Below are positions 11,906 to 30,144 of a stretch of 64,000 nucleotides of DNA, in pieces. The stretch is from Rhodopirellula baltica SH 1. Its GTDB lineage: Bacteria > Planctomycetota > Planctomycetia > Pirellulales > Pirellulaceae. The DNA is taken from NCBI RefSeq assembly GCF_000196115.1, contig NC_005027.1:5576001-5640000 (forward strand), written 5' to 3'. Numbering within the stretch: position 1 is the first letter of the stretch; every line of letters begins with the position of its first letter. The notes beneath the pieces are model-generated. The model did not search any database and was not told the origin of the DNA. It saw nothing but the letters and a program-made list of their open reading frames with translations. The translations under genes and the position numbers were made by a program.

Positions 11906-13567
11906 CTAAGGAAGTTTGTCGACGGCGGCACCGGCAGATGTTTCCGCTAATCGACTTTGTGCGGTGGCAACGAGCGGTTCGACAGCCGCATTGGACCCAT
12001 ACAGTTCTTCGATGCTGTACCAGATCTTCCGCGCCGCGATGGTTCGCCCTTCGACGAACATACGGTCGGCTTCTTTCAGCCGGTCCGTGATGATCCGGGC
12101 GGCTTCGGTTTGGTTGGTGTCCGCCTGTGAGATCTGCGCAATGCGGTTGCGGGCGAGATTGACCAATGGTTTGTATTGTTCTTCGTCTCCGAGCACCGTG
12201 ATCATCGATTGGTATTTGTCGACTGCGGTGGCATTGTCTCCGAACGTTTCATACCGCATGGCCTCGGCAACCAGGCGTTCGGCTTCGTTCTGGAGAGGCA
12301 AGTTGCGATTCATCTTGACCGTCAAAGCATGCTCAGCCTCGACCATTCGCACGCGGTCAATTTGTTCGGCCGCCCATTCGGAGTGTTCTCCATCCGGGAA
12401 TTGAGCCAACATTGGTTCCAGGTAACTGATGCGAGCTTGCGACATCGACGAGCGTGTGTCTTGTGCTAGCAGCTCCTCCGCTTCGTTTCGCATCTTTGAT
12501 TCGTTCATTGGCCAAGCGACCCATACCAGTATGCCGATCAACAAAGCCAGGATGGGTAGCAGCACCAATGCTTGATCGTGCCACGGTGTGGCATCCGGAA
12601 TCGAATCAACCTCCGCTTCGATTTCCTTTCGACCCAGCAGCTTGCGGGCTTCTTTCCGATCCGCATCGTCCGTCACTGACAACGGACTGAAACCACTCGA
12701 GGCATGCTCGGCGACACCACTGCGAGACATGGAACGTTTGCGGACTTCGGCTAGCTGGAGCTTGACCGCGGCAGCCGACACCGGGCGTTGTCCGGGATCT
12801 TTGTTGAGCAACTGCATCACCAATCGATCCATCCACACGGGGCATTCCATCACGGTGGAAGCCACGGAAGTTGGCGACTGATACTTCAGGTTACTGGTGA
12901 CTTCTTGAACGGTGGAACCGGTGATCGGCGGGGCACCTGTGAGTGCTTCGTATAGCAACGCACCGAACAGATAGAGGTCGGTGCGGGCGGTCACCGGATC
13001 GTTTGGCGTGGGGGCCTCCGGAGCCGACCGCATCATTTGGCCGATCGATGGTGGACGCGAAACGTGGTACGGACCGCTTCGAAAGGGAGGCGTTCCGTCA
13101 ACGTCGCGAACATCGATCAAGACCGGACTCAGCCCAGCGATGATGACTTTATCAGGGGTGATTCTTCCGTGAACGATGTCGCGGTCGTGCAGATACATCA
13201 ACGCATCGATCAGCGGTTCCGCGAGTTCTAGAACCGATTCCCAAGGCAATCGACCTCGACGCTGGATCTCTTCGGCCAAAGTGGATCCTTCGACCAACTC
13301 ATGAGCCAGGTAGGCTTCTGACTCTTCAAAGCCGCCGCCGTAGCATTTGACGATCGCTGGATGATCAAGCCGTTTGAGGCGATCCCATTCTTCCGCGAAA
13401 GCCTGTCGCGATTCTTGCGTTCCGCCAAATGGCATTTGGAAGACGCGAACGGCCACCGCTTTTCGCATTTTGATGTGCACAGCACGCCAAACACGCGCGT
13501 CCCTCGCCGACGGATCGGGACCCAGCGGGGATTCAATGGCGAGCGGACCGAGACGACTGCGAGGCAT
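11906..13567 (-). CDS. Membrane-anchored Ser/Thr pseudokinase
   Basis: This is a 553-residue protein with a Hanks-kinase fold over residues 10-265, but the catalytic residues are gone. The ATP-anchoring lysine is R41 (AVAVRVF), the HRDxKxxN loop reads HGRITPDK (133-140) with the catalytic Asp, Lys and Asn all replaced, and DFG reads DVR at 152-154. Near residue 335 a single membrane helix (LVLLPILALLIGILVWVAW) leads to an extracytoplasmic, helical, TPR-like C-terminal region. It likely serves as a binding or scaffold protein rather than an enzyme. It heads the operon with the small membrane protein, hybrid kinase and receiver-kinase. The fold is clear; loss of activity is inferred from motif loss. 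Confidence 0.87.
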   Translation of the reverse strand: MPRSRLGPLAIESPLGPDPSARDARVWRAVHIKMRKAVAVRVFQMPFGGTQESRQAFAEEWDRLKRLDHPAIVKCYGGGFEESEAYLAHELVEGSTLAEEIQRRGRLPWESVLELAEPLIDALMYLHDRDIVHGRITPDKVIIAGLSPVLIDVRDVDGTPPFRSGPYHVSRPPSIGQMMRSAPEAPTPNDPVTARTDLYLFGALLYEALTGAPPITGSTVQEVTSNLKYQSPTSVASTVMECPVWMDRLVMQLLNKDPGQRPVSAAAVKLQLAEVRKRSMSRSGVAEHASSGFSPLSVTDDADRKEARKLLGRKEIEAEVDSIPDATPWHDQALVLLPILALLIGILVWVAWPMNESKMRNEAEELLAQDTRSSMSQARISYLEPMLAQFPDGEHSEWAAEQIDRVRMVEAEHALTVKMNRNLPLQNEAERLVAEAMRYETFGDNATAVDKYQSMITVLGDEEQYKPLVNLARNRIAQISQADTNQTEAARIITDRLKEADRMFVEGRTIAARKIWYSIEELYGSNAAVEPLVATAQSRLAETSAGAAVDKLP

Positions 13568-25361: not shown

Positions 25362-26762
25362 ATGGCCAACGATCTCGTCCCGCTGGGGTGGGTTGTTCGG
25401 AACCAATGCAAACAACTCCAAATGCTTGCTTCACGCATGAATGCCCTGCTAACCGACACACACAACTTCGAATCAGCCGCGTTGGGCGGTTTGTTGACGG
25501 ACGATACGTTTTGGCCGGCGGAACCCCGCTCGCTGAATGAACTCGGCCTGTCGGTCAGCTTTATCGAAGCGTTGACGATCAAGTCGATTCATCAAATCGG
25601 AACCATCAGTGGTCGCAATGTGGCGACGATGATGGGATTGCCGTTTCGTTTGGTGGAACCCATCGTTGATGCGCTTCGGACTCGCAAGTTTGTTGCTCAC
25701 GTGCGACCGGCAGCGTTCAACGACTATTACTACTCGCTGACCGAACTGGGGCAAAAGCGGGCGCAGACTCACCTTCAGCAATGCAGCTACATCGGGCCAG
25801 CACCCGTGCCATTGGCTGATTACACACTCAGCGTGGAAGCTCAAGCCGCCGGTGTCGATCCCATCGAGCGAGATGATTTACAAGCTTCGCTTTCGAAGAT
25901 CTCCTACCAGGACGAATTGCTCGACCAGATTGGTCCAGCGATCAATAGCAACACTGGGATGTTCTTGTTCGGTCCTCCCGGCAATGGAAAGACCACCATC
26001 GCTCGAAGCTTGACCCAGTGTTTGGGACAGGAAATTTGGATCCCCCATGCGATCCTGGATGATGGCAATTTGATCAAAGTCAAAGACGATGCCTATCACC
26101 AAGAAACGCCTGTGCCGGAAGGCGACGGTCAGTTGTTGAAGGCGCAGGAATGGGACAAGCGTTGGGTGCGAATTCAACGACCCAGCGTCGTTGTTGGCGG
26201 TGAATTGGTAATGGAGAACCTCGAAGTTCGCCACGATCATCGATCCAATATCTGCGAAGCACCGCTTCAGATGAAAAGCAACTGCGGTTGTCTGTTGATC
26301 GATGACTTTGGCCGTCAACGAATTGCTCCGGAAGAGTTGCTCAACCGGTGGATTGTGCCGCTGGAAAATCGATGCGATTACTTGACGTTGCCAACGGGTA
26401 AGAAGATTCAGATCCCGTTTGAGCAGCTCATCTTGTTCTCGACCAATTTGAACCCGGACGACCTTGTTGACGAAGCGTTTCTTCGCCGCGTCCCCTACAA
26501 GATCTTTGTGAACGACCCGTCGCCCGACGAGTTTCGGTCGCTCATGAAAACAGTCGCTTCGCAAATGGGTTTCCCTGAGACACCCGAAGCCGCCAACCAT
26601 TTGCTCGCCTACTACAAGCAAAACAATCGACCACCGCGTCGATGCCACCCGCGAGATTTGCTGACGCAAGTCGCTAACTTCTGTCGTTACCGTCGATTGC
26701 CTTTGACGTTGCGGCCGGAGTACCTCGATCAAGCATGCCGTAGTTACTTCAGTGCTCTCTAG
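25362..26762 (+). CDS. AAA ATPase, partner candidate of the kinase-tubulin protein
   Basis: This is a 466-residue protein. The N-terminal 170 residues look like a winged-helix or helical adaptor (SLNELGLSVSFIEALTIKSI, LTELGQKRAQTHL). The AAA core has Walker A GPPGNGKT (204-211), Walker B CLLIDDFGRQR, a sensor-like LFSTNLNPDDLVDEAFLRR and a C-terminal lid with RCHPRDLLTQVANFC. The start at ATG 25362 has a weak AGG in front; an ATG at 25428 (MLASRMNALL) is possible. It lies 142 bases upstream of the kinase-tubulin gene on the same strand. MoxR-like or TadZ-neighbour ATPases look similar. The substrate is unknown. Confidence 0.8.
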   Translation: MANDLVPLGWVVRNQCKQLQMLASRMNALLTDTHNFESAALGGLLTDDTFWPAEPRSLNELGLSVSFIEALTIKSIHQIGTISGRNVATMMGLPFRLVEPIVDALRTRKFVAHVRPAAFNDYYYSLTELGQKRAQTHLQQCSYIGPAPVPLADYTLSVEAQAAGVDPIERDDLQASLSKISYQDELLDQIGPAINSNTGMFLFGPPGNGKTTIARSLTQCLGQEIWIPHAILDDGNLIKVKDDAYHQETPVPEGDGQLLKAQEWDKRWVRIQRPSVVVGGELVMENLEVRHDHRSNICEAPLQMKSNCGCLLIDDFGRQRIAPEELLNRWIVPLENRCDYLTLPTGKKIQIPFEQLILFSTNLNPDDLVDEAFLRRVPYKIFVNDPSPDEFRSLMKTVASQMGFPETPEAANHLLAYYKQNNRPPRRCHPRDLLTQVANFCRYRRLPLTLRPEYLDQACRSYFSAL

Positions 26763-26904
26763 GTTTTGTTCTAGGCGTGGCTGACCCTTCAATAGGGAAT
26801 GCTCGACGTCTACTGATTTTTCGAAAACAGCGGATTCCATCAAAGAATTCGTGCCGAACCAGACTTTCCATTCGCCGCTCAACAATGTCGTTCACAGTCG
26901 CCCG

Positions 26905-29900
26905 ATGACCGTCAAGACAACCCAAACGATCGCTCCCGGATACGAACCAATCACCGGCTACACGCTGGAGAAAAAGATTGGTGAAGGCGGCTTTGGTGAA
27001 GTTTGGTTGGCCAATGCGCCAGGCGGATTGAAGAAAGCGGTCAAGTTTGTGTTTGGTGCCAACGACGCCAGACGCGGTTCGCGTGAGCTGAAATCGTTGG
27101 AGCGAATCAAGGGAGTTCACCACCCGTTTCTGTTGACTCTGGAGCGATTTGGAATCGTGGACGATCGCTTGGTGATCGTCACGGAACTGGCTGACGGATC
27201 GCTCGAAGACGTACTGAAACGACATCAAGACCGCGGTTCATGTGGTATTCCCCGGGCCGCTTTGTTGTCGTATCTGCATGATGCAGCGGATGCTTTGGAT
27301 TACTTGCACGGCAGCTATCAACTACAGCACCTCGACGTGAAGCCAGGAAATTTGTTGTTGGTCGGTGGGCACGTCAAGGTTGGTGACTTTGGGTTACTCA
27401 AAGATCTGCGAGAGATCGATCACTCGGTGATTGGCGGATTGACCCCCATCTACGCTCCGCCGGAGTTGTTTGACGGTCGGCCATGCATCAACAGCGATCA
27501 GTATTCGCTCGCGGTGATGTATCAAGAGTTGTTGACCGGTACGCGTCCATTCACCGGTCGTACGATCGCGCAATTGGCAACGCAGCACATCCATGCCGCA
27601 CCCGTGTTGGATTCATTGCCAGCAGCCGACCGTGTGGCGGTGGCGCGAGCATTGGAGAAAGACCCGGAACGTCGTTTCGACTCGTGCAAGGACTTCGTCG
27701 AAGCACTGCGAACAACCCGTGGTCGCGATGAGACGGCCATCCATACTTCGACCAAACCAAGCATTCGGACTCGCCAGGAAGCCGTCGAAGACTTGCCAAG
27801 TCTGAAGTCGGGAAAGGCGATGGTCCACGCCCGTGTGACGGGACACGCCTTGGTGGTCGCCGTTGGTGGCGTCGGAGCAGAATGCTTGCATGAACTACGC
27901 AGCCGTGTTGCGACCTTGCATAGTGCTTGCCCCTTGGATCTGCATTCGGTATTGATCGACACGGACATGCATACCATTCACGCGGCTCGTTTGGCAGAAG
28001 CATCGGACCGCATTCCGCCGGCGACAATTCTGCACACACCGCTCAAATCGGCTCAGCAATACCGCGAAGGACGGACTGATCACTTCCGATCGTTGTCACG
28101 TCGTTGGATTTACAACGTGCCTCGCAGCGGTACGACCGAAGGCATGCGTCCACTGGGTCGGTTGGCGATGATTGATCACGCGAAAACCATCGACTCGGGG
28201 CTTCGCGAATCGATTGATCACTTGGCTGCGGTCTGTGGTGACCGCATTCCGTCGGTCTACATCATTGGTTCGCTTTCTGGTGGAACGGCCAGCGGAATGG
28301 TGATGGACTTGGCACCTCGGATTCGAACAATCTTGGATGAAGCGGGTCTGGAAAGCGCTTCGGTATTGCCGTTGTTGTCGACCGTATCGCTGCAGGGCAA
28401 CCCGCACCAACCATTGACGCTTCATGATTCATTCGCCGCGATCTCTGAGATCGGTCACTACATGTTGCCCGAGAACAGTTATCCCGGGGATTCCGGCGTG
28501 GACTGGTCCGGAGTTCCTGCCTCTCGAAACCCGCTGCGAAATGCGTATGTGGTCGTCGACGGCGATCACGCTCTCCCAAAATCAGGTTCGGCCGCGGCAA
28601 CGATGGTGGATTACCTGTGGGCGGATGCGACCGGTGCTGGCGAACTGTTGGCGGAAGCTCGACGAAGTGATCAAGCCGATGCTGCGGTGCTCGCGAAACC
28701 TATGCTGCGATCGGTCGGAGTGGCTCGGCTGAAATGTGTTCGCGCATTGGAAGAGAATTTGCTCGCGCCCGCTGCGGCACGTCACCTTTTGTTGCGTTGG
28801 CTCGGCAACCCCAATGAGTCACGTCAGATCGCAGGTCCAACAACCGAACGCTTACGGAAACGGTGCGGTCTGGACATCGCGAATTATTTGGACGAAGTGA
28901 AGGCACCGTTTGGCCAAGACGCGGACAACATCGCAAGAAATTTGTCCGAGATGCTTTCCCGTCTATCGGTTCAGGAAATCATGGATGGCCCACGAATCAC
29001 GCGACTGTTGAAGGAAAAACTAAGCGAGTGTGATGTTTTGGATCGATTGGACCGCCGGGCGGCAACTCAAATGGTCATGCTTCGTCGCGAAGTGTCGGTC
29101 AGGATGCACGATGGACGAATCGATGTCACTTCCAGCATGCAGGCCACCGAAGGATTGATGAATTGGTGTTCGGCCCAAGTCCAAGAATTGGAACAATTCC
29201 GAACCGACCTACGCGAGCAGCAAACCGCGGTGCGGCAACAGCTGTGCTCCAATACAGACTTGGAAAGCGAAATCGAAGCGGCCGAGAAGTTGGCGATGAT
29301 GGAGTTGAATCTGATTGCATCAGAAATGGCCGGCGAACAGCTCAAAGCATTTGCAAAACGAATTGAGAATCTGCATGCGACATTGACCAAGATGGCAGTC
29401 GGCATCGCGAAGGCCATTCGATGTGTTCCCGGTGACAATCGCGACACAGAGAATCCTTGGACGGAGATGCCGCAGGAGATTCAGATGCGTTTCAATGCGG
29501 TACTGGAAAACCTGCATTCGCAAACCGCGTCACCTTGGTTGCTCGGTCCGTTGCGTGACGCGAAAATCGAGTGGGACGAACAGGCGTTGGCAACTGATTT
29601 GGTCGGGAAGTGTTTACCCGTCGTCGAAAATGTGATCGACGCTCATCGACAGTCTTCTGCTAGTTTGACTGATTCAACGACCTCGTCAGCATCGGTTCTG
29701 ACTCAGGATTCAGACCTGACTAATACCCAAGTGATCCCGGATCAACGCGACACCAACACGGCTCAGCTAGCCCGGACAGGTGTTTGCGAAACTCAAACAT
29801 TTGAGCAACCACAGAACGGCACCTCGTTGTGGAATGAACAAACAACGATTGAATCCGCGTTGCGGGTTGCATCGCCACCGCTGCTGCAATGCGGCGGGCG

Positions 29901-30144
29901 GCAACGATTGTTGTTGTTGGTCGGAAGCGAGTCGGATCGTGAGCGTTTGGAACCCCAGGTTTCGTCCGCTCACACGGGCTCATTGACGACGGTGGTGATC
30001 CCGGGTGTGACTCCGATTTTGGTTCACGAAGCCCAGCAAATTCCGATTGATAATGTTTTGGAACAGCTGGAGTTGGTATCCGGCGGCAACACGCAGGTCA
30101 GCAAACGCTTGCACGCTCGCAGCGACGTGAACTGGAAAGAATAG
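26905..30144 (+). CDS. Ser/Thr protein kinase fused to tubulin/FtsZ-like GTPase domain
   Basis: This is a 1079-residue protein from ATG 26905; a GTG 18 codons upstream is the alternative. Residues 13-275 form a kinase domain with an intact core: glycine loop GEGGFGEVW, K47, catalytic loop HLDVKPGN with D144 and N149, and DFG 161-163. From about 308 a tubulin-superfamily pattern follows in the right order: glycine loop AVGGVGAE (319-326), LIDTD (350-354) like the FtsZ NTDxxAL strand, and SGGTASG (458-464), one residue off the tubulin signature [SAG]GGTG[SA]G. It resembles the Tubulin_2/FtsZ-like families. A helical, partly coiled-coil region (about 730-850) and a low-complexity linker precede a short C-terminal domain. 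No membrane helix is seen. GTP binding and self-assembly are inferred. Confidence 0.85.
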   Translation: MTVKTTQTIAPGYEPITGYTLEKKIGEGGFGEVWLANAPGGLKKAVKFVFGANDARRGSRELKSLERIKGVHHPFLLTLERFGIVDDRLVIVTELADGSLEDVLKRHQDRGSCGIPRAALLSYLHDAADALDYLHGSYQLQHLDVKPGNLLLVGGHVKVGDFGLLKDLREIDHSVIGGLTPIYAPPELFDGRPCINSDQYSLAVMYQELLTGTRPFTGRTIAQLATQHIHAAPVLDSLPAADRVAVARALEKDPERRFDSCKDFVEALRTTRGRDETAIHTSTKPSIRTRQEAVEDLPSLKSGKAMVHARVTGHALVVAVGGVGAECLHELRSRVATLHSACPLDLHSVLIDTDMHTIHAARLAEASDRIPPATILHTPLKSAQQYREGRTDHFRSLSRRWIYNVPRSGTTEGMRPLGRLAMIDHAKTIDSGLRESIDHLAAVCGDRIPSVYIIGSLSGGTASGMVMDLAPRIRTILDEAGLESASVLPLLSTVSLQGNPHQPLTLHDSFAAISEIGHYMLPENSYPGDSGVDWSGVPASRNPLRNAYVVVDGDHALPKSGSAAATMVDYLWADATGAGELLAEARRSDQADAAVLAKPMLRSVGVARLKCVRALEENLLAPAAARHLLLRWLGNPNESRQIAGPTTERLRKRCGLDIANYLDEVKAPFGQDADNIARNLSEMLSRLSVQEIMDGPRITRLLKEKLSECDVLDRLDRRAATQMVMLRREVSVRMHDGRIDVTSSMQATEGLMNWCSAQVQELEQFRTDLREQQTAVRQQLCSNTDLESEIEAAEKLAMMELNLIASEMAGEQLKAFAKRIENLHATLTKMAVGIAKAIRCVPGDNRDTENPWTEMPQEIQMRFNAVLENLHSQTASPWLLGPLRDAKIEWDEQALATDLVGKCLPVVENVIDAHRQSSASLTDSTTSSASVLTQDSDLTNTQVIPDQRDTNTAQLARTGVCETQTFEQPQNGTSLWNEQTTIESALRVASPPLLQCGGRQRLLLLVGSESDRERLEPQVSSAHTGSLTTVVIPGVTPILVHEAQQIPIDNVLEQLELVSGGNTQVSKRLHARSDVNWKE

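Follow-up and report, generated by a model that had tools for sequence, protein, structure and literature searches.

A kinase-tubulin fusion gene in R. baltica

We analysed a stretch of 64,000 nucleotides of Rhodopirellula baltica SH 1 (contig NC_005027.1, positions 5,576,001 to 5,640,000), referred to below as the window, which belongs to a single-contig genome of 7,145,576 bases. The window carries a gene for a protein in which a Ser/Thr kinase is fused to a tubulin-like domain, and a gene for an AAA+ ATPase lies next to it (Table 1). An earlier note on this DNA had proposed a fusion gene at this place, and the open reading frame (ORF) was confirmed there, from an ATG to a stop codon; an alternative GTG start at 26851 would add 18 residues. 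Pfam matches and an AlphaFold2 model gave the layout of the protein as kinase, Tubulin_2 domain, long helices and a C-terminal alpha/beta segment. Its domains make it a member of the FtsZl1 (Tubulin_2) family with a fused kinase. A pattern-based relative search returned a protein of Rhodopirellula europaea 6C as the closest named relative (97% identity across the tubulin part), and a record labelled R. baltica BR-MGV with just 30% identity; such a search may omit the window's genome itself.

Table 1. Positions of the fusion gene, its parts and the adjacent AAA+ gene in the window
Feature	Coordinates	Strand	Remarks
AAA+ ATPase, conserved partner	25362..26762	+	next gene upstream of the fusion gene, gap 142 bp, same strand
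Kinase-tubulin fusion gene	26905..30144	+	1,079 aa; FtsZl1/Tubulin_2 family, N-terminal Ser/Thr kinase
Protein kinase domain, residues 19-257	26959..27675	+	PF00069 E 6.6e-29; K47, D144, N149, D161-G163 intact; HLD replaces HRD (non-RD)
T1-like glycine loop GHALVVAVGGVGAE, residues 313-326	27841..27882	+	G321 in 81/81
Tubulin_2 domain, residues 316-551	27850..28557	+	PF13809 E 1e-17; predicted tubulin/FtsZ fold
Family signature RRWxYNxPxSxxTEGxRPLGRLAxxDH, residues 399-425	28099..28179	+	R400, W401, R415 in 81/81
T4-like loop SGGTASG, residues 458-464	28276..28296	+	middle positions variable among relatives
Long helices, presumed coiled coil, residues about 711-923	29035..29673	+	AlphaFold2 model
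Low-confidence linker, probably disordered, residues 927-979	29683..29841	+	AlphaFold2 model; TQ motifs in close relatives
C-terminal alpha/beta segment, residues about 982-1067	29848..30105	+	AlphaFold2 model; conserved positions in alignments A1 and A4

Proteins of this kind have been described before. Makarova and Koonin (2010) described the FtsZl1 family, noted a kinase at the N-terminus of four planctomycete members and listed Rhodopirellula baltica in the legend to Figure 1, an alignment. They predicted membrane remodelling as the role of the family while leaving its function open (PMC2875224). Planctomycetes Tubulin_2 proteins with an N-terminal protein kinase domain also appear in PMC9871819, and the tubulin-like domain was reported as the commonest partner among domains found solely in cytoplasmic Ser/Thr kinases, the excerpts of that paper discussing neither gene neighbours nor mechanism (PMC11032199). 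The papers found, from the openly licensed PMC literature, included no functional study of FtsZl1 proteins.

For conservation we used 80 loci retrieved with two peptide patterns from the tubulin part, which are the best 80 of 156 relatives, and added the window protein to give 81 rows. A second set held 41 sequences and excluded L001 and L032, which duplicate the window locus. In the 81 rows, mean pairwise identity was highest in the kinase (63%), followed by the tubulin half (37%), the C-terminus (29%) and the coiled coil (15%).

The earlier note had called the kinase domain intact, and this held: the Pfam match scored 101.5 bits against a cut-off of 31.7, and the motifs GEGGFGEV, K47, HLD144xKPxN149 and D161FG were all found. 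K47, D144 and N149 were unchanged throughout the 79 rows covering these positions, and 80 rows kept DFG, two of them with Y for F, suggesting that the kinase is apparently catalytically competent. Among the 41 sequences, the kinase was absent from two (L020 and L015, the latter a second gene of genome G008) and decayed in one, that of genome G004 (L023; L136 8129-11479), where HLN stands for HLD and the glycine loop is eroded. A further protein kinase gene was detected with Pfam in the window at 11912-13567 on the minus strand.

Fold and conservation of the tubulin-like part

Of the tubulin superfamily signatures claimed by the earlier note, SGGTASG stands in the T4-like position and a glycine loop in the T1-like one, and PF13809 scored 64.9 bits against a cut-off of 27. 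We then modelled residues 305-1079 with AlphaFold2 from 66 aligned sequences (pLDDT 86.7, pTM 0.70) and compared the model with the PDB using Foldseek. There were 86 matches at E <= 0.001, and all 50 shown were FtsZ, CetZ or tubulin/microtubule entries, matches to chains of complexes being classed by title and length. The best match had E 1.8e-5 and probability 1.00; among the matches listed, TM-scores by target length were 0.29-0.50 and identities 9-15%. These data support a predicted tubulin/FtsZ-like fold for the non-kinase part of the protein.

The model shows a nucleotide-binding half in which strands and helices alternate. A strand (model positions 296-304) and long helices (about 310-619) come next; beyond a low-confidence stretch (623-675) lies a strand-helix-strand-strand-helix segment (695-754). 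The long helices may be an insertion within the second tubulin domain. The earlier note had assigned the tubulin-like fold to residues 305-560; the fold itself stood, but by our reading of the model those residues make up just part of it. Its coiled coil corresponds to the long helices of the model. The predicted fold is like that of FtsZ, CetZ and tubulin; the protein differs from these by its long helical insert and its N-terminal kinase, and we could not recognise a T7 signature in it. As in FtsZl1 proteins, a Tubulin-type N-domain, a coiled coil and a C-terminal domain follow one another; that last domain was predicted to be mostly helical for most FtsZl1 proteins, whereas it is alpha/beta in our model, and the region past the nucleotide-binding half could not be aligned by Makarova and Koonin (PMC2875224).

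Eight positions on the tubulin side were identical in all 81 rows: G321, R400, W401, R415, G459, E515, R586 and R602. For R400, W401 and R415 this invariance follows in part from the search, whose patterns contained RRW and RPLGRL. Where the GTP-binding loop pattern is GGGTG(S/T)G, the loop here reads SGGTASG, and it varies among relatives. In the segment that is the candidate for T7, the sequence alignment has D at position 574 in 44 of 81 rows and N in 19, and R586 and R602 are invariant.

The C-terminal segment has conserved positions in alignments A1 and A4, the latter built from 65 of the 80 loci. In the linker before it, the motif TQ.[FWMIHLY] occurred in 15 of the 81 rows, in close relatives only, compared with a mean of 2.2 and a maximum of 8 in 2,000 shuffles; these TQ motifs are candidate phosphothreonine sites. 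In the kinase linker, the same motif occurred in 6 of 81 rows, no more than shuffles give.

Two partner genes, AAA+ and FHA-EAL

We clustered the ORFs of at least 90 aa around the fusion gene in the 80 loci. Just two other clusters were widespread, one encoding the AAA+ ATPase and the other a protein with an FHA and an EAL domain (FHA-EAL), each present in 60 of the 80 loci; tblastn raised the AAA+ count to 63. The next cluster, a response regulator-GGDEF-CBS protein (for example L066 3605-5074), reached 14 loci and is a possible second link to cyclic di-GMP (c-di-GMP). Nine other neighbours in the window matched only 1 to 5 of the 80 loci.

In 45 of the 73 loci with more than 1.6 kb of upstream DNA, the fusion gene is preceded on its own strand by the AAA+ gene with a gap below 1 kb; counting called ORFs that overlap by 73-204 bases adds six more loci. 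Relatives of the AAA+ protein in alignment A3 are 47-88% identical to the window protein, and alignment A5 holds 47 of the 57 AAA rows that have at least 400 aa. A model of the window protein (pLDDT 76.5) has PDB neighbours that include a Pyrococcus AAA protein, Lon, ComM, RuvB, MCM and NorQ, and its N-terminal part looks winged-helix-like. We distinguished type A AAA proteins (at least 628 bits, a gap chosen after the scores were seen, the next score being 614.5) from a second class below 615 bits, which was found also in genomes without the kinase-tubulin gene. In the window's genome, a second AAA homologue (G000:C1:5079995-5080981; 52% identity, C-terminal part) lies within a 2,114-codon open frame, and long frames like it are present in other genomes of the genus.

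The FHA-EAL gene of the window's genome lies outside the window (G000:C1:6880943-6882049; FHA E 2.2e-15, EAL E 8.4e-40). Among the relatives, FHA-EAL falls within the locus in 58 of the 72 loci with more than 3.2 kb of upstream DNA, in several arrangements; 37 of these 58 genes are upstream on the opposite strand and the others mostly on the same strand beside the fusion gene. Residues were counted in FHA-EAL rows over 300 aa plus the protein of the window's genome. The FHA positions G47, R48, S62, H65, N84 and G85 were identical in all 60 sequences; 45 of these had an intact EAL catalytic set (at least 7 of 8), and in the other 15 it was degraded. We take these positions to be the functional ones, namely the phosphothreonine site of FHA and the catalytic set of EAL. 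Two T2SSE-family ATPases are encoded a few kb downstream of FHA-EAL in the window's genome (L132 12674-15761). One has MshEN and looks like PilB, the other like PilT.

Distribution of the three genes

We analysed co-occurrence in 100 genomes of the family Pirellulaceae (68 genera; 77 genomes at least 90% complete). The non-kinase profile matched in 63 of them, and we took 62 as carriers of the kinase-tubulin gene, leaving out G040, whose match is a 137-residue C-terminal fragment. G021 and G051, which PF13809 found and the non-kinase profile did not, were also left out; the G051 protein (L020) has no kinase. Presence of the kinase was checked in 30 fetched loci (L002-L031), fewer than the 62 carriers. 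For FHA-EAL the lower limit was 200 bits; G090 and G084 (partial matches, FHA part included) were added, and G051 and G096 (EAL part only) were excluded. Type A AAA was present in 58 genomes and FHA-EAL in 67. In the order both, fusion only, partner only and neither, the counts were 57/5/1/37 for type A AAA (Fisher p 9e-21) and 61/1/6/32 for FHA-EAL (p 6e-19), where the p values ignore shared ancestry. In the 77 more complete genomes, the counts were 45/2/0/30 and 46/1/4/26, respectively, and by genus 40/4/0/24 and 44/0/3/21. The sole carrier without FHA-EAL is G004, which also lacks type A AAA and has the decayed kinase described above, a single case.

Within the genus, 11 of 13 genomes, the window's own included, carry the fusion gene, and a chance or artefactual ORF was thereby ruled out. 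Under the limits used for the family, all 11 carriers have both partners, the AAA gene scoring at least 771 bits and FHA-EAL at least 541, and the two non-carriers, which may represent one loss, have neither. This set overlaps the family set in G000, G045 and G091, and G100, G102 and G109 had also been inspected beforehand. Across the phylum, the profile reached E 1e-15 in 4 of 149 genomes. Two of these belong to the family, the window's genome among them. The two from outside it matched weakly, and no kinase motif was seen in the DNA of their loci, though one of the loci begins at a contig end.

The earlier note had stated that planctomycetes of this group lack FtsZ, in line with which PF00091 (FtsZ/tubulin) had no match in the window's genome up to E 10, whereas 13 of 14 control genomes matched; two relatives' genes matched PF00091 under its cut-off, at E 0.008 and 0.19. 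Together with the predicted tubulin fold, this absence would agree with the fusion protein replacing FtsZ as the cytoskeleton of division or budding. The distribution, however, makes a general replacement highly improbable: 38 of the 100 family genomes (30 of the 77 more complete ones) were not counted as carriers, the two non-carriers of the genus are 97 and 99% complete, and the profile is found in few genomes of the phylum, while the absence of FtsZ is stated for Planctomycetota generally (PMC11032199). Because so many relatives lack the fusion gene, replacement of division FtsZ is most likely not its role.

Comparison with known systems

FtsZl1 operons centre on von Willebrand factor A (vWA) proteins, kinases, GTPases and OmpA-like proteins (PMC2875224), while the fusion gene is accompanied by the AAA+ ATPase and FHA-EAL. 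A Pfam scan of 13 other ORFs in the window (11.9-33.2 kb, two being overlapping frames) gave no vWA or GTPase gene; a vWA neighbour is typical of FtsZl1 genes, not required. Two kinase-free Tubulin_2 proteins of the same family, L137 and L138, adjoin vWA genes, suggesting that the classical FtsZl1 arrangement and the three-gene one coexist in Pirellulaceae.

In GTPase-centred and MoxR-vWA conflict systems, too, regulators occur together with tubulin-like proteins or AAA+ chaperones, and the NTP-dependent conflict systems described there include tubulin-like proteins (PMC7159879). The window differs from them in the result of the scan above. A phage-defence module made of a kinase, an AAA+ protein and a tubulin-like assembly would agree with the patchy presence of the genes and with the joint absence of unlinked ones, and the kinase resembles the PADLOC models mad6 and PD-T4-6. 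We nevertheless consider such a module improbable, given that the PADLOC matches span essentially the kinase domain, that no other gene recurs in more than 14 of the 80 loci (the one that reaches this number being the response regulator-GGDEF-CBS protein) and that the AAA+ partner evolves slowly.

A possible three-part module

The domains of the protein, its predicted fold, the conservation of catalytic and FHA residues, and the synteny and co-occurrence of the genes together suggest a three-part Pirellulaceae module with the kinase-tubulin protein as its core and a dedicated AAA+ ATPase and FHA-EAL as its partners. We rate this reading, including the working that follows, as evenly poised. 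The tubulin-like body with its coiled coil would self-associate or act as a scaffold once its nucleotide pocket is filled, and the attached kinase would phosphorylate threonines of its own linkers or of neighbouring subunits. The FHA domain of FHA-EAL would dock on the phosphothreonine and bring c-di-GMP turnover to the assembly, contributing docking only where EAL has decayed, and the AAA+ protein would dismantle or remodel the assembly. We infer all of these functional steps, from assembly and nucleotide binding to the phosphorylation target, docking and remodelling. Control of assembly by self-phosphorylation, as suggested in the earlier note, is possible, and the conserved FHA partner is compatible with it.

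Several observations weigh against this module and its working. T461 of the T4-like loop is retained in only 62 of 81 rows, and the 81 aligned sequences have no recognisable, strictly kept T7 catalytic signature, suggesting that GTPase-driven polymerisation may be absent. Against E. coli FtsZ, comparing profiles gave a weak match of only 39 columns (E 0.011, probability 3.7%), and a PDB sequence search with profile A1 found no tubulin better than E 0.74 (a CetZ), its top matches being coiled-coil proteins (best E 2.7e-5, an apolipoprotein). In the window's genome, FHA-EAL is unlinked to the fusion gene. Type A AAA is absent from five carriers (G004, G008, G020, G034 and G062), some of whose assemblies are incomplete, and six non-carriers possess FHA-EAL. 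The split between AAA types A and B and the rule for including FHA-EAL were fixed after the scores were seen, and the genomes share ancestry.

The difference in conservation, with the kinase ahead of the tubulin part, would fit equally well with a kinase under the control of a tubulin-like sensor. The protein would then be mainly a regulated kinase, in which the tubulin fold is a non-polymerising platform that senses a nucleotide or another ligand and dimerises, and FHA-EAL reads the phosphorylation that is the output. The invariant kinase residues, the lack of strict conservation in the T4 loop and the T7-like segment, and the retention of FHA residues where EAL decays all agree with such a protein. 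Constraint is found on the tubulin side too, in the eight invariant positions (three of them inside the search patterns); moreover, the AAA+ partner suggests a large assembly that needs remodelling, and kinase-free Tubulin_2 proteins beside vWA genes exist in the same family. We regard a mainly regulated kinase as possible, though on the doubtful side.

In its strongest form, the three-part module would contain a self-phosphorylating tubulin-like filament that is switched by its kinase, read by FHA with coupling to c-di-GMP and dismantled by AAA+, that is, a phospho-controlled cytoskeletal machine in bacteria without FtsZ; we think this form unlikely. The fusion of kinase and tubulin is itself already in print. 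No report of the AAA+ and FHA-EAL partners was found in the openly licensed PMC literature, although additional gene-context files of PMC2875224 may list them, and as far as our literature searches go, the three-gene module adds a previously undescribed variant to the FtsZl1 theme. With partners that include a phosphothreonine reader and an AAA+ remodeller, the function of FtsZl1 becomes directly testable in bacteria that grow without FtsZ.

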